Assembly (NCBI RefSeq): GCF_014836885.1
Contig: NZ_JACSPY010000018.1
Location: 1-53,737, forward strand
Length of the DNA stretch: 53,737 nucleotides
Origin: Brevibacterium gallinarum
GTDB taxonomy: Bacteria > Actinomycetota > Actinomycetes > Actinomycetales > Brevibacteriaceae
Direction: 5' to 3'
Shown here piece after piece: positions 17,941 to 48,132 of the stretch. The notes below the pieces were generated by a model. It was not told the origin of the DNA, searched no databases, and worked only from the letters and a program-made list of their open reading frames with translations. Made by a program: the position numbers and the translations under genes. Each line of letters opens with the position of its first letter. Positions within the stretch are counted from its first letter, which is position 1.

Positions 17941-17979
17941 CTTTTGGCGCAGCGACCGTGAGTTAGCCGTGCGCCCCGA

Positions 17980-30267: not shown

Positions 30268-31062
30268 TCAGTCGATGATGAGCCGCTGGGCGCCGGCCAC
30301 TTCGATCCACTGCGCGTCGACATCGAAATGCGCGGCAATCACCTCAGGGGTCAGCACCTGCCGCGGCCGGCCGGTCTCCTGCACCTGCCCGCCAGCCAGC
30401 AGCACGACGCGATCGCCGAACTGCGCGGCTGCCGTGAGATCGTGCAGCGCCACGACGACGGTGCGGCCCTCGTCGCGGGCCAGGGCGGTGAGCAGCCGCA
30501 GGATCGTGCGCTGGTGGCCGATGTCGAGGTGATTGGTCGGCTCATCCATGATGATGAGCTCGGTGTGCTGCGCGAGCACCCGCGCCAGGTGCGTGCGCTG
30601 GCGCTCACCGCCCGACAGTGTCGCCAGATCGCGTGCCGCCAGGTGGGTGACTGCCGCCTTCTCCATCGCCTGTGCGACGTGGCGGTCGTCATCGGCACTC
30701 AGCCTGCCGAAGGGCCCCTGCAAGGCAGTGCGGCCGAGCTCCACCGCTTCGCGCGTGCGGGTGCCGAGGGCGGCATCCTGCTCCTGGGTCAGAACGCCGA
30801 TGCGCCTGACTCGCTCGAGTCTGGAGAGCTCCGTGAGGCGGCGACCGCCGAGTCGGATCTCACCAGAGAACGTCCGGGCGCCGAACACGCCGCCGAGCAG
30901 CGTGGATTTCCCTGAGCCGTTCGGACCCACAAGCACGGTCACCTCACCGGGAGCGGCATGGAAGCTGACATCGCGCACGAGGATCGTTCGCCCGACTGAG
31001 ACCGTGACCTGTTCGACGGTGAGTGCCCCGGCGGTGCACTGCGTGCTGTTCGTGTGCTTCAC
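30268..31062 (-). CDS. FecE/FepC-type siderophore ABC importer ATPase
   Basis: A 264-residue ATPase of the iron-siderophore/cobalamin importer class. Walker A GPNGSGKST (about 45-53), signature LSGGERQRTHLARVL and Walker B LIIMDEPTNHLDIGHQ are complete; the last phrase is characteristic of FepC/BtuD-like proteins. It is the last gene of the long minus-strand operon and overlaps the permease by four bases. With the next two genes it forms a full importer for a metal chelate; the ligand may be the peptide made by the upstream enzymes. Confidence 0.92.
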   Translation of the reverse strand: MKHTNSTQCTAGALTVEQVTVSVGRTILVRDVSFHAAPGEVTVLVGPNGSGKSTLLGGVFGARTFSGEIRLGGRRLTELSRLERVRRIGVLTQEQDAALGTRTREAVELGRTALQGPFGRLSADDDRHVAQAMEKAAVTHLAARDLATLSGGERQRTHLARVLAQHTELIIMDEPTNHLDIGHQRTILRLLTALARDEGRTVVVALHDLTAAAQFGDRVVLLAGGQVQETGRPRQVLTPEVIAAHFDVDAQWIEVAGAQRLIID

Positions 31063-32198
31063 AGGGTGCCCCGCATGCGTGTGATCATGAGGACGGCGAA
31101 GACGGTGGAGCCGATGATCGCAGTGATGACGCCCAGCGGGATCTCCGACGGCGGTGTGATGACGCGGGAGACGACGTCAGCCCACGTGAGGAAGGCCGCG
31201 CCGGTGGCTGCGGCGGCCGGCAGCAGCCGGCGATGCGCAGTGCCGACGACCAGGCGCACGGCATGGGGGATGACGAGCGAGACGAAGCCGATGCCGCCGG
31301 CAGCAGCCACGCCGACACCGACGATGAGCGCGCAGATGGTGATGAGCTCTGCGCGCAGCCGGCCCGGGTGCGTGCCGAGCGCATGTGCGGTGTGATCGCC
31401 GAAGGCCAGTGTGTCGAGGCGGCGCGCACGCACCAGCAGATAGGCGATCCCGCACACGAGGACGAAGACCGGCAGCAGCATATCGCCCCACTGCGCACCA
31501 GCGACCGAGCCGAGCTGCCAGAAGATCGCCGAGCGCAGCTTGCGGTCATCACCGGCTGCGATGATGACGAAGTCCGTCAGCGCTGCGAGCAGGAACGACA
31601 CCGCCATGCCTGCGAGCACGAGCTTGAGCGGAGACGCTGCACCGCGTGCCGAAGCGAGCAGGATCGTGAGCGCGAAGCCGACCCCGGCACCTGCGAAGGC
31701 CCCGGTGGGGATCGCAAGGCTCAGGGCTGCGCCCGGGGCCAACGCGATCACCCCGACAGCGCCGAGCGCAGCCCCCGAAGTGCCTCCGAGGATCGACGAA
31801 TCGGCAAGCGGATTGCGCACAACCGCCTGCAGTACACAGCCGACGAGCCCCAGCGACGCCCCGATGATCGCAGCGAGCATCCCGCGCGGCAGCCTCAGCT
31901 CCGCGACGAGCAGATCCCCGTCGGGCACATAGTCCACTCCCCATGCACGCCGGTAGGCGATCCCGAGCACGTCGATGAGGCTCCGCTCACCGGAGCCGAC
32001 CATGCCGGAGGCTCCGAACCCGGCGACGACAAGCGCGAGCATACCGATGACAAGTGCGGCGGTGAGGGCATCGCGCGCGCGATGCCGGCGCGGTGCGCGC
32101 ACCGCACGTGCGGCCTCGGATCTTCCTGCGCCGGTGGATTCGGTCCTGGCGGACTGGGTATCGGCAGGCGTGCCGGCCGCCGGGCGCAGGATCTTCAT
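31059..32198 (-). CDS. FecCD-type siderophore ABC importer permease
   Basis: A 379-residue permease, including an N-terminal Thr/Ala/Arg-rich leader of about 45 residues. Hallmarks of the FecCD family are visible: LRLPRGMLAAIIGASLGLVG, VVRNPLADSSILGGTSGAALG, the coupling segment ARRLDTLAFGDHTAHALG and GGIGFVSLVIPHAVRLVVG. About ten membrane helices are expected. A single permease gene means a homodimer channel. It overlaps both its neighbours (ATGA). Confidence 0.93.
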   Translation of the reverse strand: MKILRPAAGTPADTQSARTESTGAGRSEAARAVRAPRRHRARDALTAALVIGMLALVVAGFGASGMVGSGERSLIDVLGIAYRRAWGVDYVPDGDLLVAELRLPRGMLAAIIGASLGLVGCVLQAVVRNPLADSSILGGTSGAALGAVGVIALAPGAALSLAIPTGAFAGAGVGFALTILLASARGAASPLKLVLAGMAVSFLLAALTDFVIIAAGDDRKLRSAIFWQLGSVAGAQWGDMLLPVFVLVCGIAYLLVRARRLDTLAFGDHTAHALGTHPGRLRAELITICALIVGVGVAAAGGIGFVSLVIPHAVRLVVGTAHRRLLPAAAATGAAFLTWADVVSRVITPPSEIPLGVITAIIGSTVFAVLMITRMRGTL

Positions 32199-33298
32199 TC
32201 GCCCTGCGCACCTCGAGCGGACTCCCCGCCGGCCTGCGCATGCTCCCCGCCGGAGACCTGCGCGGCGGCCTCGGCCATCTGGATGATGCCGTCGATTGCC
32301 TGCGGGCCGGGCACGTTGCGCGAGTAGTCGAGGGTGATCACCCGGCCGTCGGTCTTCACGGCGTTCATCTTCGCCAGTGCCGGGTTCGACTTCAGATGCT
32401 CGAGAAGCCCATCGCGGACCTCATCGCCGCCACCGCCACCGGAGAAGATGATGTCGGGATTGCGGGTCGCGACGTCCTCCCACGATGGAGTGACAAAGGC
32501 CTTCTTCTCATCGGCGTAGGCATTCTCCAGACCGGCGCGGGTGAGCAGCTCGTCGGCGAAGCTGCCGCCGCCGGAGACATAGGGCTTCGAAGGATCCTGG
32601 TTGCCGTTGATGACGGCCGTGGGCGGGGTGCCGGAGGGCTTCTCAACGGCATCGATCGAGGACTTCCACTCATCGGTGAGCTTCTCACCGGCGTCCTTGG
32701 CGCCGATCGCTTCACCGATCGTGCGCACGTCGGTGAGGTAGCCGTCAACCGTGGCGTCGGGCTCGTTCTCGCAGGCCTCGGAGAGGTTGAGGTACGGGAT
32801 CTTCAGCTCGTCGAGGCGCTTGACGAGGGAGCCGCCCTCGTCGTTGAACCCGTAGGCGACGATGAGGTCCGGCTGCAGGTCGAGCACCGCCTCGGCCGAG
32901 GGGAACGGGAAGGTGCCGCCGAGGTTCTCCGTCTTCTTCGCCTCCGCGGCCAGGTTCTCCGGCAGGTCGTCCGGTGCCGCGCCGAAGTACCCGGCGACCT
33001 GGTCACCGGCACCGAGTGCGAAGAGCGTTTCCGCCGCGCCGTCGAAGCCGACGATCTTCTCGGGCTTCTTCTCGATTGTCACGTTCTGGCCGCAGTTCTC
33101 GACGGTAACCGGGAATCCGTCGCCAGCTTCGGTGGAGGCATCCTGTTCGGGCTTGCTCGGTGCACAGCCGGTGAGCAGAGCCGCAGTCAGAGCGGTGGCA
33201 AGCGCCGCCGCCGAGGCGGGTGCCGGTCCTCGCAGCCGGTTGCGCAGGCGTGCGGAACGGTGGATGCGTTCGATGGCGGAGGTGTCATGAGTGTTCAT
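32195..33298 (-). CDS. Siderophore-type ABC substrate-binding lipoprotein
   Basis: A 367-residue class III binding protein. The signal ends in a lipobox (ALLTGC, Cys45). The mature part has the FecB/FepB layout: ENCGQNVTIEKKPEKIVGFD, PSAEAVLDLQPDLIVAYG, a long backbone helix near DEWKSSIDAVE, and NPDIIFSGGGGGDEVRDGLL. Its ligand is a metal chelate by family. It follows the double ABC transporter by 12 bases and overlaps the permease. Placement in a peptide-modification operon suggests it recaptures the loaded product. Confidence 0.9.
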   Translation of the reverse strand: MNTHDTSAIERIHRSARLRNRLRGPAPASAAALATALTAALLTGCAPSKPEQDASTEAGDGFPVTVENCGQNVTIEKKPEKIVGFDGAAETLFALGAGDQVAGYFGAAPDDLPENLAAEAKKTENLGGTFPFPSAEAVLDLQPDLIVAYGFNDEGGSLVKRLDELKIPYLNLSEACENEPDATVDGYLTDVRTIGEAIGAKDAGEKLTDEWKSSIDAVEKPSGTPPTAVINGNQDPSKPYVSGGGSFADELLTRAGLENAYADEKKAFVTPSWEDVATRNPDIIFSGGGGGDEVRDGLLEHLKSNPALAKMNAVKTDGRVITLDYSRNVPGPQAIDGIIQMAEAAAQVSGGEHAQAGGESARGAQGE

Positions 33299-33310
33299 TC
33301 TGGGCCCTTC

Positions 33311-36300
33311 TCATGGGTTGGTTGGGTGATTGGAAGAGAACCGGCGGCCAACGCCTGCAGGCGCCGGTCTGGCGTCGCCGGGAAGCTGCGTGATGGCAGA
33401 CAGCTGTGGGGTGACGAGAGAGCTGTAGGCCGGGCAGCCGCAGAGCAGCTCTGCGTGGGTGCCGGCCCCAGCCAACCTCCCGGCATCGAAGACGAGGATG
33501 TGGTCAGCGAGCAGGACAGAGGACAGCCGGTGCGCGACGAACAGCACGGGGATGCGCTCGGACAGGCCGCGCAGCGCCGCATGCAGGCGGGCTTCCCCAT
33601 CGACGTCGAGTTGGCTGACCGCTTCGTCGAGGATGAGCGTGCGCGGGGCTGCAAGCAGTGCCCGAGCCAGTGCGAGACGCTGTCGCTGCCCGCCGGAGAG
33701 CGTCTGCCCGCCGCCTAGGAGCATCCGGTCGAGTCCCTCGGGGTGATCGGCGATCTCCTCGATCGCCGCTGCCCGCAGCGCTGCCATCAGCTGTTCATCT
33801 GACGGATTGCGCACCCGGCTGAGAGTGAGGTTCGCACGGATCGTGTCGTGGAAGAGCGCCGCATTCTGCGCGACCGTGATGACACCGCCTGCGCGCGGGC
33901 CGCACCCGGCACTGGTGATCAGACGTCCGCCGGCCAATGGCAGATGGCCGGCCAGAGCAGAGACCAGGGTGGACTTCCCGGCTCCTGAGGAGCCGACGAC
34001 TGCGGTGATGCCCTGTGCCGGGACGGTCGCCGTGACATCGCGCAGCGCGCAGGTGTCCGCCTGCGGCCAGCGGACGCTGATGTCGTCAAGATGCATCGCA
34101 GCCGCACGCCGCACATCAGCACCGTCTGCGTCCATGCAGCCCGCGCTGCGCGGCTCGGCGGCGAGCGGCTCAGCGGTGAGCACCGCATCGATCTGCTCGA
34201 CGGCGCTGTTCGTCTCGCTGCTGTGCCGCGTCACGCGGATGAGGTGCTCGACCGGGCCGGTGAGTGCCCACGCGAGTGCGATGAGCGACAGCTGCCAGGC
34301 GCTCGCCGGGAGGCCGAGCGCTGGCTTGGCTGCCAGCTCGGGGAAGAGCGCAAGCCCGGCGGCCGCGCTGAGCGGCACGAGCGCCACCCACGCGGACACT
34401 GCAGCGTCCTCGAGTCCACGCAGACGGCCGATGCGCAGCGCTGCGGCGGCCTGGTCGCGGGAGCAGGCGGCGATCTGTCGGCGCGTCTGCTCGCGTCGAT
34501 CGAAGGCGAGGATCTGGCGAATGGTGCCCAGCACCTCGGCGATGGTGTCCGCGAGCCTCGCACGCGCCTCAGCCACCGCCGCGTTGAGCACGGCTGCGCG
34601 ACGGCGAATGACGAGGGGGATGAGGCCCCCGGCGGCCAGACACGCAGCGAGCAGCACCGCGAAGCCCGGGCTCAGCACAGAGATCGCAGCGACGCCCAGC
34701 AGCGGCACGCCGATTCCGGTGAGCAGGTAGATCGAGGTATGCGCATAGAACACTTCGAGCTTCTCGGCATCTCGCAGCAGCACCGAGGACAGGGCGTGGG
34801 GCGAGCGGCGGCCCAAGCCGTGGGGCAGCAGATGGCACAGCGCCCGCAGCAGGCGGTTGCGCAGATCCGCTGACACGTCGAAGGACAGCAGGTGCGACCA
34901 GTAGTTCTCGAGCCAATGCGCAATCGCAGCGGTGACGACGCCAGCTGCAGCGATCCACAGCAGCACATCTCCCGCCCGGGATCCTGCGGCTGCCGAACCG
35001 GAGACGGTGAAGACGGTCAGCACTGCAGCGACGGCGACCACCTCGGCGATCTGCGCGAGGACACCCGCTCCGGCAGCACCGGCGAAGGCGCGGCCGTGCC
35101 CGCGCAGTGCCCGCAGCAGGCCGCACAGACCACGACCGATGCTGCGCATATCGCGTTCAGGCAGCAGAGGGTCGGTGCTGACCGGCGCCCCTGGCAGGGG
35201 AGTGTCCGGCTGGTCGGCGGAGGGGAGCAGGGGTGGACTGAGCACCCGGTGGACGAACCCTCCTGCCACCATGAGCTCGGGAACCGAGCCGGATTCGATG
35301 ACCTGTCCGGCTGAGAGGACGATGACATGGTCGGCCGCCGCGATCGTCGCCGGTCGATGGGCGACGACGATCGTCGTGCGGCCGCGGCGGCGCAGACGGA
35401 TCTGCTCGAGCAGGCGTGCCTCACTCTCACCGTCGAGCCCTGAGGTCGCCTCATCGAGCAGCAGCAGCGGATGGTCGAGCAGCAGTGCTCGTGCGGTGCT
35501 CACGCGCGCCCGCTGCCCGCCGGACAGCAGCGATCCTCCAGTGCCCACCGGCGTGTCGAGCCCGCGCTCGGCGAGCAGGGGACCGAGTCCCAGCTCAGTG
35601 CACATCTGCGTGATCTGCGCATCGGTGAACCGGGATTCGGGGTCGATGTTCGCCCGCAGTGTGTCGTCGAAGAGCACCGGGCTCTGCTCGACCTCGGCGA
35701 TCGCGCGCGCACAGCTGCTGAGGGGAATGCTGCGCAGTTCGACATCCCGGGCCGCATCAGTGCTGCAGACGATCTCACCGGTGTAGCGGTCGTCGGTGCG
35801 GCGCAGCAGGGAGAGCAGCGTCGATTTGCCCGAGCCTGAAGCACCGATCACTGCAGTGGTGCATCCGGCAGGGATATCGCAGCTGACGGAGCTGAGCACC
35901 GGATCCGGTTGATCCGGATAGCTGAAGGTGAGGTTGCGGAAGCGCAGCTGCGGAACATCGGCGAGCCGGTGGCCGGGCACGGCTGCGTCATCACCGGCGC
36001 AGGGGCGCTGCTCGCTGAGCGCATGCACGGAGCGCGCAGCGATGAGCCCGAAGAACCCTTCGTGCCAGCGGGTGCGCAGCTCCGCGAGCGGGCGGGAGAT
36101 CTCCAGCACGATGAAGGCCGCTGGGAGCAGCAGCTGCGAAGCGGGGCCGGTCAGCCACAGAGCTGCGATCGCACCGACACCGGCGAGTGCGGTCGCGACA
36201 GTGGTGAGGGTCCACGACCCGAGTGAGACTCGCAGGTCGTGCTGAGCCGTCTGGCGCAGGGCCTCGGCACGCGCTCCGAGGCGTTCGACGATCACCCGCG

Positions 36301-36934
36301 TGCCGCCGGTGTCGATGATCGTCGACATCTTCTCCAGCGCTTCGGACACATCGGCGATATAGCGTTCCTGAGCCTGCCACACCGCCTGGCCCGCCCGATT
36401 GGTGACGGCTCTCCAGATCTGCTGTGCGGCGAAGGTCAGGGCGATGCCGGCCAGCACGCAGACGGCGGCAGCCAAGCCGGGCAGCCCGAGCAGCATGAGC
36501 GCAATGAGCCCCGCCGGTACGGAGAGGAGAACGGCCGCGAGCTGGGTGAGGTATTCGGCCGTATAGGCGGAGAGCTTCGCGGTGGCATCGACGACGGTGG
36601 TGACGGCAGCACCGGTGCGGCGCGTGCGGGCATGCACTTCCCCGAGGTCGATGAGCTGGTCCATGAGGCCCTGACGCAGCGCTGTGGTCATCGCTGCGGA
36701 GAAGCGCGAGAGGCACCGACCGGCCGCAGTCGAGGCGAGAAGGCGCACGCCGGTGAAGGCGAAGGCTGCGGTGAGCGCGGTGCTCCAGCCGGCGGGCAGC
36801 GCAATGACCGCGAAGCCGAGTGCCCCGGCTGCGGCGAACCCGGCCAGTGCAGCCAGTGTGCGCAGCAGGGCGGCAGCGACCCACCAGCCGGGGGCCGTGC
36901 CGATGAAGCGAAGGGCGCGCGGATCGAGCAGCAC
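33311..36934 (-). CDS. Double (fused) ABC transporter, two membrane-ATPase halves in one chain
   Basis: A 1207-residue protein with the order membrane domain, ATPase, membrane domain, ATPase. The first ATPase has Walker A GASGSGKSTLL (about residue 365) and LLSGGQRARVSTARALLL; the second has GSSGAGKSTLVSAL (about 983) and TLSGGQRQRLALARALL with ILDEAVSQLD. The exporter-type fold covers both true exporters (CydDC) and the siderophore importers YbtPQ and IrtAB. Next to a FecBCD importer either role is possible. The start is GTG 36934: AGGGGG lies just upstream and the ThiS gene ends two bases before; the same frame stays open further upstream but only inside other genes. Confidence 0.87.
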   Translation of the reverse strand: MLLDPRALRFIGTAPGWWVAAALLRTLAALAGFAAAGALGFAVIALPAGWSTALTAAFAFTGVRLLASTAAGRCLSRFSAAMTTALRQGLMDQLIDLGEVHARTRRTGAAVTTVVDATAKLSAYTAEYLTQLAAVLLSVPAGLIALMLLGLPGLAAAVCVLAGIALTFAAQQIWRAVTNRAGQAVWQAQERYIADVSEALEKMSTIIDTGGTRVIVERLGARAEALRQTAQHDLRVSLGSWTLTTVATALAGVGAIAALWLTGPASQLLLPAAFIVLEISRPLAELRTRWHEGFFGLIAARSVHALSEQRPCAGDDAAVPGHRLADVPQLRFRNLTFSYPDQPDPVLSSVSCDIPAGCTTAVIGASGSGKSTLLSLLRRTDDRYTGEIVCSTDAARDVELRSIPLSSCARAIAEVEQSPVLFDDTLRANIDPESRFTDAQITQMCTELGLGPLLAERGLDTPVGTGGSLLSGGQRARVSTARALLLDHPLLLLDEATSGLDGESEARLLEQIRLRRRGRTTIVVAHRPATIAAADHVIVLSAGQVIESGSVPELMVAGGFVHRVLSPPLLPSADQPDTPLPGAPVSTDPLLPERDMRSIGRGLCGLLRALRGHGRAFAGAAGAGVLAQIAEVVAVAAVLTVFTVSGSAAAGSRAGDVLLWIAAAGVVTAAIAHWLENYWSHLLSFDVSADLRNRLLRALCHLLPHGLGRRSPHALSSVLLRDAEKLEVFYAHTSIYLLTGIGVPLLGVAAISVLSPGFAVLLAACLAAGGLIPLVIRRRAAVLNAAVAEARARLADTIAEVLGTIRQILAFDRREQTRRQIAACSRDQAAAALRIGRLRGLEDAAVSAWVALVPLSAAAGLALFPELAAKPALGLPASAWQLSLIALAWALTGPVEHLIRVTRHSSETNSAVEQIDAVLTAEPLAAEPRSAGCMDADGADVRRAAAMHLDDISVRWPQADTCALRDVTATVPAQGITAVVGSSGAGKSTLVSALAGHLPLAGGRLITSAGCGPRAGGVITVAQNAALFHDTIRANLTLSRVRNPSDEQLMAALRAAAIEEIADHPEGLDRMLLGGGQTLSGGQRQRLALARALLAAPRTLILDEAVSQLDVDGEARLHAALRGLSERIPVLFVAHRLSSVLLADHILVFDAGRLAGAGTHAELLCGCPAYSSLVTPQLSAITQLPGDARPAPAGVGRRFSSNHPTNP

Positions 36935-36936
36935 GT

Positions 36937-37206
36937 CTAGCCCCCTGCAACCGCAGTGAGGAAGCGGATCTGCGCGGCCGTGGCTGTCGGTGCATCCATC
37001 CCTCCCAGATCCTCGGCGGGTTGTCCATCGATGAGCGCGTGGACATAGGGCACGAGCTGTCCCTCGCGCAGCACTGCAGCGCCGAACTGCGGATGATCCG
37101 CGTTGATGGCTGTGATGATGTCCCGCAGGGTCTCGCCGCGTGCGTGCGCATCGGGTGAATCGGCGACGAATCGCCGCAGCGGTGTGGCGAACGCGATCTC
37201 GGTCAT
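36937..37206 (-). CDS. ThiS/MoaD-like sulfur-carrier protein with C-terminal Gly-Gly
   Basis: An 89-residue ubiquitin-like protein. The C-terminus ends FLTAVAGG, the di-glycine tail that a ThiF/MoeB enzyme adenylates and converts to a thiocarboxylate. Internal features also fit: GETLRDIITAINADHPQFGA after the first strands, and VHALIDGQPAEDLGGMDAP before the last strand. It overlaps the ThiF-rhodanese gene by four bases. No thiamin or molybdopterin genes are nearby, so it likely serves the peptide pathway, as QbsE serves thioquinolobactin synthesis. Confidence 0.88.
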   Translation of the reverse strand: MTEIAFATPLRRFVADSPDAHARGETLRDIITAINADHPQFGAAVLREGQLVPYVHALIDGQPAEDLGGMDAPTATAAQIRFLTAVAGG

Positions 37207-38447
37207 GGGGTCTGCTCCTGTTCTTCAGCGATCGGCTCGTGTCCGGCTGGGTCGGCACCGGGAATGCTGCTGTGGCTCGGGTCGGCATGCAGCGGGCGCT
37301 CAGTCGGCAGGCCGGCTGCCTTCCAGGCCGCGATCCCGCCGTGCAGACTGAATGCGGGGATGCCCGCTTCTGTCAGGATGTCTGCTGCCTGCAGGGAGCG
37401 GGCACCGGACTGGCATCCGATGATGAGCTCACGATGGGGCCCGGATGCGAGGCGTTCGCGCAGCGCAGCTGCCTGCGTGCGGTCCTCCATGAGCTCGGCG
37501 AGTGGAAGGTGCACAGCATTCGGATACGCGAGCTCGGCTGTCTCCTCATCGGTGCGGACGTCGACGAGCAGTGCCTGTCCGTTTGACAGCCGGCTGTGCG
37601 CCTCGTGCGGTGTGAGTTCGGCGACTGCGGTCTCGCAGGCTTCGCTGACTGCTTCGAGCTCTGTGATCGGACGGCGGTCTGCACGGCGGCGTACCGGAAC
37701 CTCCTCCGTCCGGCCGGAAAGGGCATCGACGAGGACAAGGCGACCGAGCATCGGTTCTCCCACTCCGGTGATGAGTTTGACGGCTTCGAGCGCCATGGCT
37801 GAGCCGATCACCCCGCACAGCGCACCGAGGACGCCGGCTTCCGCACACGAAGGGGCGAATCCCGGTGGCGGCGGACTCGGATAGGCGTCTCGATAGTCCA
37901 CGCCAAGGCCGTCTGGAGCACTGTCCCAGAACACCGAGTACTGGCCTTCGAAGCGCAGCAGTGAACCCCAGATGCTCGGCCGTCCGGTCAGTGCGCAAGC
38001 GTCGTTGACGAGGTAGCGGGAGGCGAAGTTGTCGCTGCCGTCGATGACGAGGTCCCACTCCCCGATGATCCGGCAGGCGTTGTCGATGTCCAAGCGGACC
38101 GGCAGCTCTTCGATCTGCACGTGCGGGCTCAAGGCAGTGAGCGTCTGCTGGGCCGACGCGGTCTTGGGCCCTCCGACGCGGTCGGCGCGGTGCAGGATCT
38201 GCCGCTGCAGGTTGCTCACCGACACGGTGTCGTCGTCGACGATGCCCAGTGCTCCGACCCCGGCTGCGGCGAGGTAGAGCGCTGCCGGACTTCCGAGACC
38301 TCCGGCGCCGATGATGAGCACCCGGGCAGCGCGCAGGCGACGCTGTGCGGTTTCACCGAACTCCGGCATTCGCAGGTGACGGGAGAACCAGGTGCGCTCT
38401 TCCGCGCTCAGCGGCGCACCAGGGGCGAGAAGCGGTGGCAGAGACAT
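37203..38447 (-). CDS. ThiF/MoeB-type adenylyltransferase fused to a rhodanese domain
   Basis: A 414-residue MoeZ/MoeBR-type enzyme. The ATP site GAGGLG is at 47-52, with GIVDDDTVSVSNLQRQILH next and the adenylation region DLVIDGSDNFASRYLVND. Cys201 in APSCAEAGVLG fits the conserved MoeB cysteine. A C-terminal rhodanese domain (about 275-395) has active Cys345 in IIGCQSGARS. It should activate the Gly-Gly tail of the adjacent carrier and place a persulfide sulfur on it. Its start shares a base with the peptidase stop, so the genes are coupled. Confidence 0.92.
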   Translation of the reverse strand: MSLPPLLAPGAPLSAEERTWFSRHLRMPEFGETAQRRLRAARVLIIGAGGLGSPAALYLAAAGVGALGIVDDDTVSVSNLQRQILHRADRVGGPKTASAQQTLTALSPHVQIEELPVRLDIDNACRIIGEWDLVIDGSDNFASRYLVNDACALTGRPSIWGSLLRFEGQYSVFWDSAPDGLGVDYRDAYPSPPPPGFAPSCAEAGVLGALCGVIGSAMALEAVKLITGVGEPMLGRLVLVDALSGRTEEVPVRRRADRRPITELEAVSEACETAVAELTPHEAHSRLSNGQALLVDVRTDEETAELAYPNAVHLPLAELMEDRTQAAALRERLASGPHRELIIGCQSGARSLQAADILTEAGIPAFSLHGGIAAWKAAGLPTERPLHADPSHSSIPGADPAGHEPIAEEQEQTP

Positions 38448-40444: not shown

Positions 40445-41808
40445 GCGCTCGCCCCCGTCGACAGACGGCGCCAGCGCGGCAGCAGCCGGACGGCGCACAC
40501 GAGCAGCGCGGAAGCCCAGTAGGCAAGGTGAGTGATGAAGACGCCTGTCAGGCCGAGCTCATAATGACGGGTCAGCAGCCAGCCGAGTGGGAGGAACACC
40601 GCATATTCGGCGATGATGGCGGCTGCCATCGGGCCCCGCGTGTCCTTGAGCGAGCGCAGGCCGGCAGTCATCGCCACCTGTACCGCCATGATGAGTGCTT
40701 GAGCGAAGGCCAGCCACACGACGGTCTGTGCCGCTGCAGCGATCTGCGGCTGCGTGATCTGCCGCAGCAGCGGCGGCAGAGCGAAGGGCCCCAGGAGGAC
40801 CGCGAGTGCGCCGATGCCCAGGGTGAAAGCCGTTGTCGAACGCCACACGTGCTTCCACTGGTCTGCGTCTGCCGCACCGGCGGCACGGCCGAGCAGGGTC
40901 GTGGCTGCGGCTCCGACGCTGGAGAGAATCGTGAACACGACCATGACCGAGGCGATCTCGAGGAAGCGCGCGGCTGAGAGCAGAGTGGGGGAGAAGGGCG
41001 ACAGCAGCCAGGTGACGACGAGTCCGGCACCGGCGCTGGCAGCGAAGAAGACAGCCTCCGGCCATCCCAATGCCAGCAGCGAACGCAGTGCGCGCGGGCT
41101 GACGACGAGGAGCATCCGAAGCTGCGGCGGCGGGATCTCCGCACTCGTCGAGCGGCGTACGAGCCAGAGGAAGACTGCTGCCCCGGAGACCGTTCCGATC
41201 AGCGTCCCCAAGGCAACGCCGAAAGGCCCGATGAGGGCGTTGAGCGTCAGGGAGGCGAGAATGTCGACGGCGGCGGAGGCGGCTGAGGCAGCGAACAGGC
41301 CGCGGGTGGCGCCGAGTCCGGAGACACGGGCGCGCAGTGCCGAAGTCAGGCCGATGAACGGAAGCGCCAGCAGGGTGATCTGCAGATACCGGCTGGCGAA
41401 GACAGGGTCGATGGCGGCACCGCCGAGCAGTGAGAGTACCGGCGGTCCGGCAGCGGCGACGACCACGGCAGCCGCAGTGCCGATCCAGACGCCGGCCCAG
41501 ATCGCTGTGCTGCTTGCACGGGCGGCGTGGTCGCGGCGGCCGGCGCCTGCTGCTCGGGCGATGAGGATCTGTGCCGAGGAGACGAGACCGGCGACCGACA
41601 TCGCGAGAATCGACTGCAGGGATGAGGAGGCGACAACGGAGGCGAGCACACTGGCGGACGCGCTGCCGAGCAGTACGGCGTCATTGCTGCTGATGGTGAG
41701 GGTGACGAGGCCGGACAGAGCGATCGGCCAGGCGATCGCGAACAGCTCTCGCCAGGTGCGCAGCAGCTGCTTCGGTCCGGAATCGGTGGTCGGAGTCTCA
41801 CGCGTCAT
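40441..41808 (-). CDS. MATE-family efflux protein
   Basis: A 455-residue membrane protein with about twelve helices in two similar halves: FAIAWPIALSGLVTLTISSN opens the first and LLALGWPEAVFFAASAGAG the second. SSLQSILAMSVAGLVSSAQI and RAAGAGRRDHAARAS match the DinF/NorM MATE fold. It is the best candidate exporter of the modified peptide. Methanobactin operons also use a MATE exporter (MbnM), a useful parallel. Overlaps of four bases tie it to the genes on both sides. Confidence 0.88.
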   Translation of the reverse strand: MTRETPTTDSGPKQLLRTWRELFAIAWPIALSGLVTLTISSNDAVLLGSASASVLASVVASSSLQSILAMSVAGLVSSAQILIARAAGAGRRDHAARASSTAIWAGVWIGTAAAVVVAAAGPPVLSLLGGAAIDPVFASRYLQITLLALPFIGLTSALRARVSGLGATRGLFAASAASAAVDILASLTLNALIGPFGVALGTLIGTVSGAAVFLWLVRRSTSAEIPPPQLRMLLVVSPRALRSLLALGWPEAVFFAASAGAGLVVTWLLSPFSPTLLSAARFLEIASVMVVFTILSSVGAAATTLLGRAAGAADADQWKHVWRSTTAFTLGIGALAVLLGPFALPPLLRQITQPQIAAAAQTVVWLAFAQALIMAVQVAMTAGLRSLKDTRGPMAAAIIAEYAVFLPLGWLLTRHYELGLTGVFITHLAYWASALLVCAVRLLPRWRRLSTGASA

Positions 41809-42941
41809 GTCTGGGCCTCACGACCATCGTCTGCCCGGTCAGCGGCCAGCTGCCGGCCCACGTCCACAGCCAGCAGGTGATCCGGGACGGCTGCTGCCGC
41901 CTCGTCCCCGTAGCGATCCCAGGCCTGCTGGAGCAGCGACTGCACGGTGGCGAAGCGTATGAGGTCGGTGTCGCTCAGATGCCGGCTGCGTGCCCAGGCG
42001 GGAAGCGCATCGGCAGAGATGCCGAGGCTGCCGGCAAGCTCTGCACAGGCCTCTCCTGGGGTGGGTGCAGTGAGATCGGGTGCGGCTCCCTGTGCGAGGA
42101 GAGCGCGGACGAGTCCGGCGCGCAGTGCGTCATAGGGGAGGTCCGGGTCCTGCGGAGTCGTCTGCGGCTGTGAGGCGGCTGAGTGTGCTCGGCTGAGCAG
42201 GGTGTGTCTGAGGCGACGCAGCTGCTGGGTCGGCTGGTTCGGTTCTGCGGGTGGGAACGCAGGGTCAGCTGCTTCAGCCGGTTCGGCCAGCAGCTGCGGA
42301 AGCGCCTGCAGAGCGGATTCGGCGTCGCGGGTCTTGAGTCCGGTGCGTGCCGCGGCGAAGGACCGGAAGGCGCTGCGTGTCGTCACTGGCAGCGGCTGCA
42401 GGATCGCGTTCCAGCTGCGGTCTGCATAGAAGAGGGATTCGGCGGCCTCCACGCAGGCTGCTGCGGCTGCCGGGCTGAGCACTCCGGCGGCGACGGCGGC
42501 CTGCGCATGATCGTCGAGGTCGGCCAGCGGCACGCTCAGCGGCCGATGCTCGTCATCGGAATCGGCATGGGCGAGTGCCACGACATCATCTGCAGCGATG
42601 CGACCTGCGCGATATGCGGCTGCAATGCTGCCGAGGCCGCGTGCGCCCCACGGTTCGGTTTCCACCGCCCGCAGCGCTCCCATGCTCGAGCATCCGAAGA
42701 CCCGCGCACCGGAGGAGAGCAGAGACAGGATCTCTTTGTGCCACACGGCGGGTGCGCCTTCGAAGATGCCGTCGATGATGAGGACATCACAGGCCTGACC
42801 GTGGAGGGCCTCAATGCTGCCGCAGCGCGCAGGCGGATGGAACTCGGCGGGCTGGGAGAGGCGCAGCCGTGCCTGTGCGGCGGTGATCGTGGGGCCGCAG
42901 AAGACGTGCAGCTGCCGCGTTCGGGAATGCGGACCCGTCAT
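41805..42941 (-). CDS. TfuA-like protein, partner of a thioamide-forming YcaO
   Basis: A 378-residue protein. The N-terminal TfuA core (about 10-135) is clear: LHVFCGPTITAAQARL, DVLIIDGIFEGAPAVWHKEI, LLSSGARVFGCSSMGALRAV and AYRAGRIAADDVVALAHAD. About 240 further helical residues (Ala- and Leu-rich, with a Gln/Pro linker) extend it well past a minimal TfuA domain. TfuA proteins work with YcaO enzymes to put thioamides into peptide backbones (thioviridamide group; methyl-coenzyme M reductase). It overlaps the third YcaO gene by four bases, as expected for partners. Confidence 0.9.
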   Translation of the reverse strand: MTGPHSRTRQLHVFCGPTITAAQARLRLSQPAEFHPPARCGSIEALHGQACDVLIIDGIFEGAPAVWHKEILSLLSSGARVFGCSSMGALRAVETEPWGARGLGSIAAAYRAGRIAADDVVALAHADSDDEHRPLSVPLADLDDHAQAAVAAGVLSPAAAAACVEAAESLFYADRSWNAILQPLPVTTRSAFRSFAAARTGLKTRDAESALQALPQLLAEPAEAADPAFPPAEPNQPTQQLRRLRHTLLSRAHSAASQPQTTPQDPDLPYDALRAGLVRALLAQGAAPDLTAPTPGEACAELAGSLGISADALPAWARSRHLSDTDLIRFATVQSLLQQAWDRYGDEAAAAVPDHLLAVDVGRQLAADRADDGREAQT

Positions 42942-44242
42942 GAGCCGGCCTCCTCAGTGATAGCCAGCGCGCGCTTTCCGGGCAGGCAGGGGGTGCCGTA
43001 CTGAGCGCCGGAGCCTTCGAGGCCGGGGGCCCAGACGCGAGTGACGGTGACCTCTGCGCCGGAGGCGCGCAGTGCGCCGAGCTGCAGGCTGAGAACTGGG
43101 TTGCCGGTGAGCGCTGTGATGCGCGCGGCCAGATCCTCCGGCCCCAGTGCGGCGAGCGCCGCTTCCGGCTCCGCTGTCAGCGCTGTCGTGTGCGGTGGTG
43201 GTGCCGAGCACAGTCGCGTGTCGAGGTCGCAGCGTGCTGCCGGGTCGAGGATCCGGTCATACTCAGCCGGCAGCAGGTCGTCACGGGCCCCGGCGATGGT
43301 GATGAGCCGGGATTGCGCGGCCTCGGTCAGCGCGCGAGCGGCGGCTGCGTCGGGGTCCGTATCCGCTGCGGTGCCCATTGTGACGGGCACCGGCCGGAAC
43401 ATATGCGAGTGGGCATCACTGAGCACGGCGGCCATGGCTGGGATCGCCGTATCGGAACGGAGGTCGACGAGGCGGACTCGGGCGCCGTGTGCTTCGAGCT
43501 GGTCTGCAAGTGCGGCTGTGCGTGGGCCGCATGACGCAGCCGTGACAGCCGGTGTGAGCGGGGGCAGCGGTTCCCCGACGGACTGCGCCCGTGCGGAGGC
43601 CACCGCAAGGGCATCGCGTTCGATGAGCTCCAGCAGCGCATGCCGGGCAGCTGCCGACGGTTCGAAGCCGGCACCGAGCCCCGCCGAGTCCTGGACCAGG
43701 CCGAGGGCAGACGGAGGCTGCGTCCAATCGGTGTGAACGGCGTCGAAGGGAACGAGAACCCGTTCGCCGGTGAGCAGCTCCTCGGCCTCGGTCCACCAGG
43801 TCTCGGCGGCAAGCCGGATCGGTGTGCGGTGCGGAAGGAGACGCGGATCCACGATCCGCCGCGAGGCGCGAAGCTGAAGGTATGAACCGTGAATGCACGG
43901 CGGTCGGCAGGTCTCGGCCGTCCATGCTTCGATTGCTTCCATGCTCGCGGACACTGCAGCTGCGGCAGTGGTCTCACCCCGGCCGCTGAACACCGACAGG
44001 GAGCGGGCGGCCGGTCGGATTGCGGAGACAACAGGAATGCCGAAGGTGTCGAGGCCGGTGATCTCAGCCAGCCGCGAGACGCCGATGCGCCCGAAGAGCT
44101 CGCGCAGCTGGGCCACACGTGGGTCGTTGAGCCAGTGCGGTGAGGAGAGCAGGCTGGGAAAGGACGCCGGTTCTGAACCTGTGGTCGGCGTCGTCTCGCC
44201 CGTGGTCGCCGGCGGCGCCGGTGTCGTGTGCTGATCGTTCAT
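42938..44242 (-). CDS. YcaO-domain protein, TfuA-associated (probable thioamide synthetase)
   Basis: A 434-residue YcaO protein. It opens after a Thr/Pro-rich leader with FGRIGVSRLAEITGLDTFGI, the phrase typical of YcaOs that act with TfuA. ATP/Mg-site motifs are SMEAIEAW (100-107) and LLELIERDAL (about 203-212). It lacks the Pro-rich end of azoline-forming YcaOs. Expected chemistry: ATP-dependent activation of a backbone amide oxygen and replacement by sulfur. ATG 44242 is chosen because it overlaps the previous stop; the open frame continues upstream only inside that gene. Confidence 0.9.
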   Translation of the reverse strand: MNDQHTTPAPPATTGETTPTTGSEPASFPSLLSSPHWLNDPRVAQLRELFGRIGVSRLAEITGLDTFGIPVVSAIRPAARSLSVFSGRGETTAAAAVSASMEAIEAWTAETCRPPCIHGSYLQLRASRRIVDPRLLPHRTPIRLAAETWWTEAEELLTGERVLVPFDAVHTDWTQPPSALGLVQDSAGLGAGFEPSAAARHALLELIERDALAVASARAQSVGEPLPPLTPAVTAASCGPRTAALADQLEAHGARVRLVDLRSDTAIPAMAAVLSDAHSHMFRPVPVTMGTAADTDPDAAAARALTEAAQSRLITIAGARDDLLPAEYDRILDPAARCDLDTRLCSAPPPHTTALTAEPEAALAALGPEDLAARITALTGNPVLSLQLGALRASGAEVTVTRVWAPGLEGSGAQYGTPCLPGKRALAITEEAGS

Positions 44243-45390
44243 GCCAGCGGCACCGGAAGCTCGTCGGGGTGTGCGCTGCGCGGCAGCGGAGCGAGGGTCG
44301 TCGGTGAGAGTGCGCGCCACACGGTCGAACCCGTGGCGGCCGTTTCCGGTGAGCGCAGCTGCACCGCCCAGACGCGGTGGCCGGCCGTACAGAGCTGTGA
44401 CAGCGGATCGCACCCGCGTGGGCGCTCAGCTCGCTCCGGAACAGCGAATGCCGGATCGACCGCCTCGGAAAGGTGTGCCGCGATCGCAGCGCTGAAGCGC
44501 ATATCTGCGAGGGCCAGCAGGGTGTGTGCCAGCGAAGTGCACTCGCTCGGCGGGAGGTCGAGGTAGCGGTGCGAGGCATCGGCTGCAACGCCGAGGAGCT
44601 CGGCTGGAGCAGCAGCGAGCCGGTGGAGAGCTGCCAGGCTCACGATCGCCTCCTCAGCCGCCTTGAGGCACGACGCTTCGAGATCCGGCCCGGCGGCTGC
44701 ACCGACGGTGCGCCAGCCGGTTCGCGCGTCGACGGCCTGGGCGAGACAGCAGCAGCTTGTGATGCTGAAGAGCTCGACGCGGCAGGAGGTTCCGGCGGCG
44801 GCTTCGACGGCCGCCGGCGCTGTGAGGCGGACAGCAGGCAGCTCGCCGCGCCACCATCGGGTCACGGCGTCGCGTTCGAGCAGTTCCCACAGTGCGGAGC
44901 CAAGCGTGGGGTCGCCGGCAGGCGCAGACCGGCAGTCTGCAGAATCGCCTGCAGGACCCGAGGCCAGGCCAGCACTGCCGTGAGGGAACCAACCGGTCGT
45001 TCCGAGCAGGACCGCTGCGGCATCGACTGCAGCGGTGGCTGCCCAGCCCTCAGGGCGGAGTTCGCGGACAGCGGTGCGTGCACCGCTGCGCTGAGCTAAG
45101 GGGCCGAACTCCGGCGTGATATCTGTGACGCACCGCCCGGGTGGTGCCACCGGCTCGCCATGCCAGGCGGCTGCACGTTCGACTGCCTCGCCCTGCATCC
45201 GTGAAACGGCTCGAGCCGGACTGAACGCAGCCGCTCCGCTGACGGTATCGGGTGAGCCGAAGAGTGCGCCGGTGCACGTCCAGACTCGGCTTCCGGGCAG
45301 CGCGAGCCGCACCGGGTCGGGAGCGCAGGTTCCACAGCGGCTGTCGGTGATGGCGGCGCGGCCTGAGAGCTGGTCTGGAATTGCTGTCAT
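44239..45390 (-). CDS. YcaO-domain protein, short divergent form
   Basis: A 383-residue YcaO family member. It retains GEAVERAAAW (67-76) and WELLERDAVTRWW (about 168-180), plus KAAEEAIVSLAALH later, so nucleotide-binding residues look present. A CGTC motif (19-22) opens the chain. The end, HPDELPVPLA, is Pro-rich like azoline cyclodehydratases (D-protein type). It is shorter at the N-terminus than the next gene. Start ATG 45390 overlaps the previous stop (TGATG). It may form a complex with the upstream YcaO, or act at another residue class. Confidence 0.85.
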   Translation of the reverse strand: MTAIPDQLSGRAAITDSRCGTCAPDPVRLALPGSRVWTCTGALFGSPDTVSGAAAFSPARAVSRMQGEAVERAAAWHGEPVAPPGRCVTDITPEFGPLAQRSGARTAVRELRPEGWAATAAVDAAAVLLGTTGWFPHGSAGLASGPAGDSADCRSAPAGDPTLGSALWELLERDAVTRWWRGELPAVRLTAPAAVEAAAGTSCRVELFSITSCCCLAQAVDARTGWRTVGAAAGPDLEASCLKAAEEAIVSLAALHRLAAAPAELLGVAADASHRYLDLPPSECTSLAHTLLALADMRFSAAIAAHLSEAVDPAFAVPERAERPRGCDPLSQLCTAGHRVWAVQLRSPETAATGSTVWRALSPTTLAPLPRSAHPDELPVPLA

Positions 45391-46766
45391 CAGGTGTGCG
45401 GCAGGGGGAGAATCGGGGACGTGACGTCCAGCGGTTGTTCGACGAGACCGAGCTGCTGCGGCTCGGTGCACCAGCGGGAGCCTCCGCGCAGGGGGAAGCC
45501 GGCGGCGGCGTTGGAGTAGGTGCCTGGTGCGATGACACGCACGACGGAGTGCCCGGCAGCGGCGACATCCGGAGTGGTGAGGTCGACGGAGACCGGGTCG
45601 TGGCCGAGTTCTGCCAGTCGCTGGCGGTAAGCCTCATGCACATCTCCGGCGACGGGGCGAAGCACAGCCGGCGAAGCCGTCTCCTTCGGGCTGCGCAGAT
45701 GGGCGACCCGCTGTTGTGCGCGGGCGTCGAGATAGTACTGCGAGTTGCAGCACAGATCCGGCATGTCTGCGAAATCGCTGCGGAACGAATCGCAGTAGTG
45801 TCTGTCGCTGCGGAATGGTTTGAGCAGAGACGCACCGAAGAGTCCGAGCTCAACTGCCTTCCAAGGTCCTCCCGCAGGATCGAGCAGCCCCTTGGAGTAC
45901 GAACGCAGGCTGACCGCCTCCGCGGCGGCTTTATAAGCGGCAGAGAGCACTTCAGGGCGTGCAGCAGTGCCGACGGCGAGGATGTCGTACTCGGGGTCGA
46001 ACAGAACGACGGCAACGACCGGGACCTGCCAGCGGTTGGGCACGGCCAGCACTGTGTACTCGAACTGATCGGTCTGCGAGGACAGAGCCGCGCTCAGGCC
46101 CGGCAGCAGCTCCTCCGGCACAGCGCAGGCGCTGCCGCCTGCGCGCCACCAGATCTCCACCGCATCCCGTTCGATGATCTCCTGCATGGCAGCGAGCTCG
46201 GCTTCACGGCGGCTGCGGCCAGCTGCGAGACCGGCGAAGAGCAGCGCATTCGTCCGCGGCTCGCCTGCATAGACGGTCGAGTGGAAGTTCGCGAAAACGA
46301 TCCCGGCAGGAGCCAGCATCGGAGCCTCGCTGCTCATGCTCCGCCCTGCCGCCCACCTGACCCGGAGGTCGGCAGTGAAGGGGACGAAGGGGAACTCCTC
46401 AGTCGCATACTGCTCGTCGCTGTACAGCCGCAGCGAACGCGGATCGATCGCCCTCACCCCTGCGGCGCTGAGCTGAGCGAATGAGGCCTGCGGCAGCCCG
46501 GCGGGCACGAAATTCGCACAGTAGCGTTCGAGGGCCTCTCCGACCGCAGCGCGGGATGCGGCCGCATGCGAGGCGAAGACCATCCCGGTCGACATGCGAT
46601 CAGCAGGCCAGTCTCCGTTGAGATTGGTGTCTGCGACATGTCCGACGGACATCGAGAAGGTGCGCGGCCATTCCGGCGGATTGGCGTAGTGTTCGATCTC
46701 TGTCAGCAGACCGGTACGACGATCGACAGCGGCTGCGGCAGTGGCATCTGTGCTGGTCGGCTTCAT
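45390..46766 (-). CDS. YcaO-domain cyclodehydratase (azoline type)
   Basis: A 458-residue standalone YcaO. The conserved ATP-binding segments are clear: AAVGEALERYCANFVPAGLP (GEALERY at 76-82) and AGLAAGRSRREAELAAMQEI followed by IERDAVEIWW (about 198-207). The end, SPILPLPHT, is Pro-rich as in azoline-forming enzymes, where that tail lines the active site. With the leader-binding protein just upstream it makes a standard C/F plus D pair for Ser/Thr/Cys heterocyclisation; since the precursor lacks Cys, oxazolines would be the product. No flavin dehydrogenase is present, so azoles are not expected. Confidence 0.9.
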   Translation of the reverse strand: MKPTSTDATAAAAVDRRTGLLTEIEHYANPPEWPRTFSMSVGHVADTNLNGDWPADRMSTGMVFASHAAASRAAVGEALERYCANFVPAGLPQASFAQLSAAGVRAIDPRSLRLYSDEQYATEEFPFVPFTADLRVRWAAGRSMSSEAPMLAPAGIVFANFHSTVYAGEPRTNALLFAGLAAGRSRREAELAAMQEIIERDAVEIWWRAGGSACAVPEELLPGLSAALSSQTDQFEYTVLAVPNRWQVPVVAVVLFDPEYDILAVGTAARPEVLSAAYKAAAEAVSLRSYSKGLLDPAGGPWKAVELGLFGASLLKPFRSDRHYCDSFRSDFADMPDLCCNSQYYLDARAQQRVAHLRSPKETASPAVLRPVAGDVHEAYRQRLAELGHDPVSVDLTTPDVAAAGHSVVRVIAPGTYSNAAAGFPLRGGSRWCTEPQQLGLVEQPLDVTSPILPLPHT

Positions 46767-47614
46767 CGCTGAGTGCTTTCAGGCACGGTCAGGATGAGCT
46801 GTTCAGGTCGGGCAGGGTGAGCGCCGTCGGCGCGTGGAACAGGAAGCACGCGGTGATGGCTCAGCTCGCCGGCAGCGCTCACCACGGTCTCCGTGTGGCG
46901 CAGCAGATCCGGGGTGCTGTGCAGAGCCGTGCGCAGCCAGGCCGCTGCCAGCAGGCACGTGTCCTCGGCCGGGTGCGCGAGGCGGGCACCGTCGGGAGGG
47001 AACCACAGCGTGCTGAGCATCTCAGGTGCTGGGTGCGCGGCGAGGCGCCGGTCACGCAGGTCGAAGGAGCTGGGAAGGCCGCCGGGGGCCTCCGGCAGGG
47101 TTCTGAACGGCTGCGGCCACGGGCCGATGACGATCGAGCTTCCCTCAGCGCTGACGGGCAGGGGCACGCAGGAAAGCTCACGGCCGCAGGCCTCGACGTC
47201 GGCAGGGTTGGGGCGCACGGCGGCGAGGACGACGATCTCCTCAGGTGCACCGGGCCAGACCGGGATGGGGCCCTCACTGCAGAGCAGACGTTCGAGAGCG
47301 GAGCGCAGCGGGCCGGTGGAGGCCTCTGTGGTGGCAGAGATGATGCGGATCCGGGACTGTGCCGGCACCTGGGCGGAGACGACATAGCCCTCCGCACGGA
47401 GCGCTGAGAGGGCCTCGGCGGCCTGTGGGGAGATGAGTTCGCCGAAGCGGCCTGCGAGCATCCGCTCGGCATCGTCGACCGGCAGAGTGAGGCGGGCGAA
47501 GGATTCAGCTGCGTTGACGACGATGAGGACACCCGGTTCTGCCTGCCAGACGGAGACGTCTGGTGAGAACACGAGTTCAGGCTGCTCATGGTCGTGGCTG
47601 GGGTGAGTCGTCAT
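46763..47614 (-). CDS. Leader-peptide-binding F-protein / ocin-ThiF-like protein
   Basis: A 283-residue protein. Residues 13-85 look like a PqqD-type RiPP recognition element (LVFSPDVSVWQAEPGVLIVV, LTLPVDDAERMLAGRFGELI, ALSALRAEGYVVSA). The rest follows the ocin-ThiF pattern, with CVPLPVSAEGSSIVIGPWPQ, but shows no ATP loop and no Cys pair, so a binding rather than catalytic role is likely. Start ATG 47614 is preferred: the open frame runs up to GTG 47716, but that codon lies inside a strong hairpin. Its ribosome binding site is poor, which would keep enzyme levels below precursor levels. Confidence 0.72.
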   Translation of the reverse strand: MTTHPSHDHEQPELVFSPDVSVWQAEPGVLIVVNAAESFARLTLPVDDAERMLAGRFGELISPQAAEALSALRAEGYVVSAQVPAQSRIRIISATTEASTGPLRSALERLLCSEGPIPVWPGAPEEIVVLAAVRPNPADVEACGRELSCVPLPVSAEGSSIVIGPWPQPFRTLPEAPGGLPSSFDLRDRRLAAHPAPEMLSTLWFPPDGARLAHPAEDTCLLAAAWLRTALHSTPDLLRHTETVVSAAGELSHHRVLPVPRADGAHPARPEQLILTVPESTQR

Positions 47615-47685
47615 GATGCGGGCTGTGCGATCTGCTTCCGGTGAAAGGGGCTGGGCGATGCGCTGGGCTTCCGGTTCTGAGCGTG

Positions 47686-47716
47686 GTGGTGGCCCAGCAT
47701 GATGCCGGGCCACCAC
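47686..47716 (-). terminator. Attenuator hairpin between precursor and enzyme genes
   Basis: GTGGTGGCCCAGC (47686-47698) pairs with GCCGGGCCACCAC (47704-47716), 12 of 13 positions, around an ATGAT loop. It begins six bases after the precursor stop codon. There is no long T-run. Its place directly after a RiPP precursor is typical of partial terminators or stabilising stems that give high precursor mRNA and lower read-through into enzymes. Confidence 0.78.
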
Positions 47717-47722
47717 GGGGAC

Positions 47723-47848
47723 TCACTTCCACGCCGACAGCGCAATCGGGCTGTTGTGGTTCGACGAGTGCAGTGCAACGCCGGCCGGGCGAACGCCGAT
47801 CTTGCTGAAGGCAGGAGCCTCAGAGTTCTGGTTCTGCTTGTCAGCCAT
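47723..47848 (-). CDS. RiPP precursor peptide, 41 residues, Cys-free
   Basis: A small gene with a near-ideal ribosome binding site (AGGAAGGAGGG, six bases before ATG 47848). The N-terminal part, MADKQNQNSEAPAFSKIG, is polar and fits a leader; the probable core lies in the last 15 to 20 residues, which include HSSNHNSPIALSAWK. Ser is present at 9, 15, 28, 29, 33 and 38; there is no Cys or Thr, and Trp40-Lys41 end the peptide. It is the first gene of the operon and is followed by a hairpin. The cleavage site and modified residues cannot be told from sequence alone. Confidence 0.88.
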   Translation of the reverse strand: MADKQNQNSEAPAFSKIGVRPAGVALHSSNHNSPIALSAWK

Positions 47849-48132
47849 GGTTTCCCTCCTTCCTCTGCTGGGGGAGTGCTCGCGGGTTCGCGAACGTGGT
47901 GGCGAGTCTTCCGGCCCCGTTTTCTTATGGTCAAATGGGGATATCTTGATGGCCGCATATGTGTGTGGGGCGTCGGCTTCGGATCGGTCTTCGGCTCTGC
48001 TCGTCCTTGTCCGTATCGCGGACTCCTCGACGATGCACCGCCTCCTCAGGCCCGCTTCGCACAGGCTCGACTGCATGACTGTTGGCGGCTCGGGCCTCGT
48101 GCGGTGCCAGAACGCACCGCTACTGTGGAGAC
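47849..48132. promoter_or_regulatory. Divergent control region of the RiPP operon
   Basis: No gene is visible here. The stretch 47921-47962 is AT-rich compared with its surroundings and holds short palindromes GATATC and CATATG; the operon promoter is probably there, but I find no good -35/-10 pair. Closer to the precursor, GTTCGCGAAC (47886-47895) is a perfect 10-base palindrome, flanked by CTCGC (47879-47883) and GCGAG (47902-47906). No DtxR/IdeR iron box or Zur box was recognised. Confidence 0.5.

Follow-up and report, generated by a model that had tools for sequence, protein, structure and literature searches.

The question raised by a 17.6-kb operon of Brevibacterium gallinarum is what kind of ribosomally synthesized and post-translationally modified peptide (RiPP) it makes, and whether that peptide represents a new class. 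The operon lies on the minus strand of a 53,737-nucleotide stretch (contig NZ_JACSPY010000018.1; hereafter the window), where 14 genes, placed by open reading frame (ORF) coordinates and family scans, fill positions 30268..47848. In the order of transcription they encode a precursor peptide, an F-protein, three YcaO proteins (YcaO1, YcaO2 and YcaO3), TfuA, a MATE exporter, an S9 peptidase, a ThiF-rhodanese protein, a ThiS-like carrier, a fused ABC exporter, a substrate-binding protein (SBP), a FecCD permease and an ATPase. The gene content, the operon layout, the recurrence of the precursor motif HSxNH and the optional presence of the YcaO3-TfuA pair were observed directly. We consider it probable that an HSxNH peptide is doubly modified here, with a ring made by the F-protein and YcaO1 and a thioamide made by YcaO3-TfuA, and that sulfur relay, export and re-uptake proceed as proposed below.

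By ORF coordinates, neighbouring genes overlap at 11 of the 13 junctions; the exceptions are gaps of 108 nt between the precursor and F-protein genes and of 12 nt between the ABC and SBP genes. The length of the MATE-S9 overlap, 58 nt, follows from the choice of S9 start. All three YcaO matches of the source genome (3.17 Mb, 39 contigs) fall within the operon. A sequence-only reading of the window had named all these gene types on one strand, with near-universal junction overlap; the coordinates and the family and fold matches bear this out, except that its count of 13 genes becomes 14. They also support a cyclodehydratase-type F/YcaO pair beside a thioamidation-type YcaO-TfuA pair.

The precursor gene (47723..47848) encodes 41 residues with the core HSSNHNSPIALSAWK, which lacks Cys, and is preceded by a strong Shine-Dalgarno (SD) sequence, GGAAGGAGG. 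Among the 186 SD-led small start-to-stop readings of the window (nested starts counted), HSxNH occurs in the precursor only, and this single reading among 186 exceeds chance. The mechanical ORF at 47611-47958, which runs across the precursor in another frame, was rejected as a protein and is most likely spurious. A protein search with the 41-residue peptide yielded three candidates, all of them matches: the window's own identical entry (P0014; 3 member sequences, 8 contigs), P0015 (76%) and P0016 (66%). The homologues share the conserved stretches PAFS..G.RPAGVALHSSNH and ALSAWK. No NCBIfam model matched the window precursor, a profile scan of genome contigs with the precursor alignment gave no relatives, and HSxNH strings had no match in a literature search. 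The HSxNH precursor family thus seems to be undescribed in the literature and family models searched, paper supplements lying outside that search.

Related clusters were reached through TfuA and YcaO1. Counting the source genome each time, TfuA (PF07812) turned up in one of the 57 genus genomes, in 4 of 396 at the level of the order and in 24 of 394 at that of the class. Up to 20 kb was examined around all 28 other TfuA places from the order and class searches, and only one, L052, resembled the window. Its YcaO1, YcaO3, TfuA and FecCD match those of the window at 44%, 39%, 40% and 43%, respectively; F-protein, SBP, ATPase and fused ABC genes are also present, and an SD-led small ORF (3683-3778 of that locus) upstream of the F-protein gene reads MKVTKLKVAQVRASVHSNNHSTVTRSSVAWR. 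A YcaO1 search matched 200 of 341 genomes of the family of L052, which is another family of the class, and 30 YcaO1 places there had 39-46% identity with E below 1e-80. We analysed 21 loci, consisting of L052, itself among the 30, and 20 of the others; nine were left out. Twenty of the 21 were chosen via YcaO1 and L052 via TfuA, none via the precursor.

An SD-led small ORF with HSxNH was found at 18 of the 21 loci (not L091, L106 or L107), whereas the 33 control loci, with 1917 such small readings between them, had none. With the window, P0015 and P0016 these ORFs form a set of 21 precursors with 14 distinct cores, so that the window's HSxNH core is seen again in 20 related peptides. Position 3 of the motif is S, N, H or G, core position 7 is Ser or Thr in 20/21, and 19/21 end in AWK or AWR. 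Because the 18 ORFs were chosen by the HSxNH pattern, the constancy of His1, Ser2, Asn4 and His5 is partly built in. P0015 and P0016 were found without any motif pattern, and a wider pattern (H[ST]xNH, HSxxH or C-terminal [SA][AV]AW[KR]) returned, at the expected place, solely ORFs that also fit HSxNH; elsewhere it returned one unrelated 62-residue ORF, in L103. None of the 21 precursors contains Cys, which rules out thiazolines and leaves oxazolines as the only azolines. L106 and L107, which have a YcaO1 relative together with FecBCD and F-like proteins, yielded no HSxNH ORF and may hold a different core family.

The gene plan also recurs. By tblastn (E<=1e-3), FecBCD-type SBP, permease and ATPase genes were present at all 21 loci, a second YcaO at 20 (missing in L107), the F-protein at 20 (the exception, L091, is truncated by a contig end), a CocE-type hydrolase at 19 (not L103 or L107), and YcaO3 with TfuA at seven (L052, L095, L096, L099, L101, L102 and L103).

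The closest characterised relative found is the streptamidine (ami) cluster. Seventeen plasmid records matched YcaO1; the top two, Streptomyces NBC_00503 (37%, a fused YcaO) and NBC_00158 (34%), have other surroundings. In the third, Rhodococcus rhodochrous pNit (L017), AmiD is 31% identical to YcaO1, and the annotation lists amiA ('streptamidine family RiPP'), a CocE/NonD hydrolase, a YcaO, two ABC genes, FecBCD and an S9 peptidase. The window's YcaO1, S9 peptidase, both ABC halves, SBP, FecCD and ATPase match pNit by tblastn, the ABC and Fec proteins being common families, and the fused ABC exporter is collinear with the two half-transporters of the pNit cluster. In excerpts of the streptamidine paper (PMC8442711), the cluster of Streptomyces albidoflavus J1074 runs from the precursor (amiA) through TruD-like AmiB, hydrolase AmiC and YcaO AmiD, with fecBCDE-like amiF1-4 and two ABC exporters (amiT1-T2); the set also includes a dehydrogenase, AmiE. 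Deletion of amiB, amiC, amiD or amiF1-F4 abolished streptamidine, whose core HLSATH carries an N-terminal amidine and for which neither metal binding nor antibiotic activity was found.

The window and the ami cluster have in common a small precursor, a TruD-like partner without recognisable domain, a YcaO with a Pro-rich tail, a hydrolase or peptidase, FecBCD(E) and two ABC exporter halves. L052-type relatives also share the ami order (A-B-C-D) and encode a hydrolase with a match to pNit AmiC (30%, E 7e-8). Extra in the window are YcaO2, YcaO3-TfuA, ThiF-rhodanese, ThiS and MATE. The precursors of the window, P0015, P0016, L052, L089, L101 and L103 had no match to NF040714 or NF040715 at E<=10, in a test in which pNit AmiA scored 66.5 bits, and the similarity between the F-protein and AmiB was not significant. 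As to its relation to STREPTAMIDINE, we class the cluster as one that works like the ami pathway, supplemented by a thioamidation module, rather than as a member of the streptamidine family. The streptamidine-type gene plan is also extended to a second recurrent precursor family.

These comparisons alter the sequence-only reading. It had proposed a probably new class, with an exact gene set not known to it from a described pathway. The precursor family does appear undescribed, but the design is not unique: the precursor search turned up P0015 and P0016, the TfuA search L052 and the YcaO1 search a wider cluster family, and the cluster follows a recurrent ami-like plan with optional thioamidation rather than being of a wholly new kind. 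It had also proposed an azoline/thioamide product. The RiPP YcaO logic stands, the thiazoline falls with the lack of Cys, and, since the closest characterised relative found is the streptamidine cluster, an amidine ring is possible in place of an azoline.

Carried further, the likeness to ami would make this a streptamidine-type pathway in which a six-membered amidine is built at the N-terminus of the HSxNH core, with a thioamide solely as an activated intermediate and a sulfur-free final product. The gene order of L052 and most relatives, which is that of ami, points that way, as does HLSATH, which likewise begins and ends with His, and pNit AmiD falls inside a starred 22-row YcaO1 set (96/89). 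However, this AmiD, the only one in the tree, is joined to L103 by a long branch, no dehydrogenase family was found among the 14 window genes, and the pNit AmiE piece had no tblastn match in the 21 loci. Ser3 of streptamidine is not conserved in HSxNH cores, and the ami cluster makes its amidine without TfuA (PMC8442711, in excerpt). We regard a sulfur-free amidine product as quite unlikely, and retain a ring together with a thioamide as the probable outcome.

The ring would be made by the F-protein and YcaO1. For the F-protein (46763..47614), no Pfam family came near the cut-off. Its structural model resembles RRE domains and LynD/McbB, consistent with an RRE and an Ocin-ThiF-like domain, and a relative matches TIGR03882 with a score below the cut-off; one relative is from Brachybacterium sp. 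DNPG3. A search of 199 related genomes returned only its own copy, and the F alignment found no relatives in genome contigs or in viral contigs. Judged by the modelled fold, the F-protein is the likely leader-binding partner of YcaO1 (45390..46766), a SagD-type YcaO (TIGR03604, 229.7 bits against a cut-off of 219.25) with the Pro-rich C-terminus PILPLPHT. An F/E1-like RRE partner, recognised from its fold only, thus accompanies a SagD-type YcaO as in linear azol(in)e peptides, and the Cys-free precursors offer Ser/Thr sites. Pfam scans of the operon genes showed neither of the thiopeptide marks sought, a split LanB-type dehydratase and a [4+2] enzyme. In the 57 genus genomes YcaO1 had four other matches (best E 8.3e-18), and the three of these places that were inspected held no such cluster.

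YcaO2 (44239..45390) is a shortened YcaO whose PF02624 score (25.2 bits, for the longer ORF) falls narrowly under the cut-off of 25.7 bits. It retains two ATP-site motifs, GEAVER and ELLERDA; in the second YcaO of most relatives ERHA replaces ERDA, and a Pro-rich tail resembles that of YcaO1. YcaO2 may be a catalyst or a partner, and a plasmid search with it gave no matches. In four genomes (G776, G777, G778 and G779), several second YcaO matches beside the YcaO1 relative contain a single in-frame stop codon (TGA or TAG), a hint either of a decaying YcaO copy or of a frame read beyond its end.

In the proposed scheme, the F-protein would bind the leader and present the core to YcaO1, and together they would close a ring at core Ser2, either an oxazoline or a streptamidine-like amidine, while YcaO2 would assist or add a second ring. 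The leader would be removed by the S9 prolyl-oligopeptidase-type peptidase (38447..40498, start uncertain; PF00326, 120.3 bits), replacing the CocE-type hydrolase of 19/21 relatives; in the window no CocE hydrolase was found and the S9 peptidase is there instead. Among the 21 loci, S9 and MATE matches occurred once each, both in the TfuA-bearing L103 (genome G859). This HSxNH cluster, like the window, has TfuA, MATE and an S9-type match; its precursor ends in AWE, and its SBP matches lie at two separate places.

The thioamide would be introduced by YcaO3 and TfuA, converting a backbone amide. YcaO3 (42938..44242) is of the thioamidation type (PF02624, 169.8 bits; TIGR03266, 156.2 bits, under the cut-off of 365; MJ1094, 2.1e-16), and its gene adjoins that of TfuA (41805..42941; PF07812, 118.1 bits) with a 4-nt overlap at 42938-42941. 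Adjacent overlapping genes of these same families are found in TfuA-YcaO thioamidated RiPPs (the thioviridamide group and thiovarsolins) and in the McrA thioglycine YcaO-TfuA system; in the window, by contrast, they come together with a second pair, of F-protein and SagD-type YcaO, and with an HSxNH precursor. A TfuA scan of viral contigs gave no relatives.

The pair is optional within the family. The same 16-residue core, HSSNHATVALAKVAWR, is encoded at L093 and L097, where TfuA and YcaO3 are absent within 20 kb, and at L101, where both are present. The genomes of L093 and L097 (G699 and G753) and of L090 and L092 (G740 and G760), which we infer to belong to the 394 class genomes, are not among the 24 TfuA positives and therefore appear to be TfuA-free genome-wide. 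In the YcaO1 tree, loci with and without TfuA are interleaved with starred support, L101 grouping with L105, L093 and L097, and L100 and L104 with the L052 group. For the eight HSxNH rows of the TfuA tree, three changes are required, of which at least two are forced, and a single origin of the cassette in HSxNH clusters was rejected. The window TfuA lies on a long branch and has an odd composition, so its own origin is unsure. We favour repeated gain or loss of YcaO3-TfuA. Because an identical core is encoded with and without the predicted sulfur-swap pair, the role of the swap is directly testable, and L101 versus L093/L097 provide natural pairs in which to compare how O-to-S exchange affects export, uptake, metal binding or activity.

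A candidate sulfur supply lies within the operon. The ThiF-rhodanese protein (37203..38447; PF00899, 238.2 bits; PF00581, 47.2 bits) is of the MoeZ type with a CQSGAR loop. The overlapping downstream gene encodes a ThiS/SAMP-like carrier (36937..37206) ending in AGG, and thus in Gly-Gly, with matches to SAMP1 (32.1 bits, below cut-off), 4n6e_B (6.2e-5) and PF02597 (21.6 bits, just below cut-off). The two may form a dedicated sulfur supply, in which ThiF would adenylate the C-terminal Gly-Gly of the ThiS-like protein and the rhodanese would load sulfur, giving a thiocarboxylate that feeds YcaO3-TfuA. Alternatively, both could be passengers serving general sulfur metabolism (molybdenum cofactor, thiamine, cysteine). 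MoeZ-type proteins are multi-purpose, and neither ThiF nor ThiS was found by tblastn in the 21 related loci, including the seven other TfuA-bearing HSxNH loci. Against passengers stand the overlap of the two genes within the operon and the presence of two further ThiF genes elsewhere in the source genome. In addition, ThiF lies in the 20-kb stretch examined at each of the three other TfuA loci from the order sample (L009, L010 and L011, two of them from one genus), with rhodanese in two and ThiS in two. In excerpts of PMC5589413, methanogen thiF, moaD, moeB and rhodanese-domain genes lie near ycaO-tfuA, and sulfur delivery by TfuA or rhodanese neighbours is considered possible. We judge the passenger explanation unlikely.

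The association does not hold as a general link in the class. In the rest of the class sample ThiF was found at 0/25 TfuA loci and ThiS at 1/25 (L069), two of the 25 stretches being short contigs of 4.9 and 7.7 kb; overall, ThiF accompanies 3/28 other TfuA loci, all of one order, and ThiS 3/28 (L009, L011 and L069). Nor is it new, since earlier papers saw such neighbours: excerpts of Santos-Aberturas 2019 (PMC6511847) describe ThiS-like proteins accompanying actinobacterial tfuA, and figure legends of Malit 2021 (Figures 4-5; PMC8120280) name ThiS, MoeB and S9 peptidase, along with additional ycaO genes, as neighbours of tfuA. These thioamidated clusters, with multiple ycaO genes, share gene types with the window, which may be among the 613 families of that study; its main text, in the parts available and with supplements outside this scope, contains no FecCD, rhodanese, streptamidine, siderophore or searched HSxNH string. 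The role of TfuA and the sulfur source of thioamidation are treated as open in excerpts of PMC8120280 and PMC5589413, and the present operon contains a candidate donor pair.

The product would be exported by MATE (40441..41808; PF01554, 99.4 bits; counterpart in L103), by the fused double ABC exporter (33311..36940; TTG start; ABC_tran and ABC_membrane in two stretches each), or by both. Strong ABC-exporter matches (E<1e-40) occurred at seven loci, namely 6/7 TfuA-bearing and 1/14 TfuA-free. Re-import would proceed through the FecB-type SBP (32195..33298; PF01497, 109.7 bits), the FecCD permease (31059..32198; PF01032, 270.2 bits) and the Fec-type ATPase (30268..31062; PF00005, 101.1 bits), possibly with a metal bound by the two core His residues; metal binding is the weakest-supported step. 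The product could instead be a secreted antibiotic, with FecBCD acting in self-protection or entry rather than metallophore uptake. RiPPs with azolines or thioamides are often antibiotics, and the operon has exporters of two kinds. Examples of thioamidated RiPP antibiotics appear in excerpts of PMC8120280. Importer genes at 21/21 relatives argue against this, as do the requirement for amiF1-F4 in streptamidine production and the lack of observed antibacterial activity of streptamidine (excerpts of PMC8442711); an antibiotic role appears improbable. Our broadest proposal, of widespread undescribed HSxNH RiPP metallophores with an O/S backbone switch through repeatedly acquired YcaO-TfuA, here fed by its own ThiF-rhodanese-to-ThiS thiocarboxylate relay, is tentative and rather doubtful as a whole. 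If true, it would provide a thioamide-forming RiPP pathway with a dedicated protein-thiocarboxylate donor.

No DtxR-type iron box was found in the window with up to three mismatches allowed. A heme oxygenase gene (51643-52311; PF01126, 146.7 bits) shares the minus strand with the precursor gene and lies 3.8 kb upstream of it, a possible link to iron. A sodium:alanine symporter gene (49057-50718, plus strand; PF01235) is divergent from the operon. Shortly past a tRNA-Leu at 11077, G+C content dips to 0.56-0.60 at 12000-18000, compared with about 0.68 around it; this region carries CN_hydrolase and amino-acid ABC transporter genes and was perhaps acquired.

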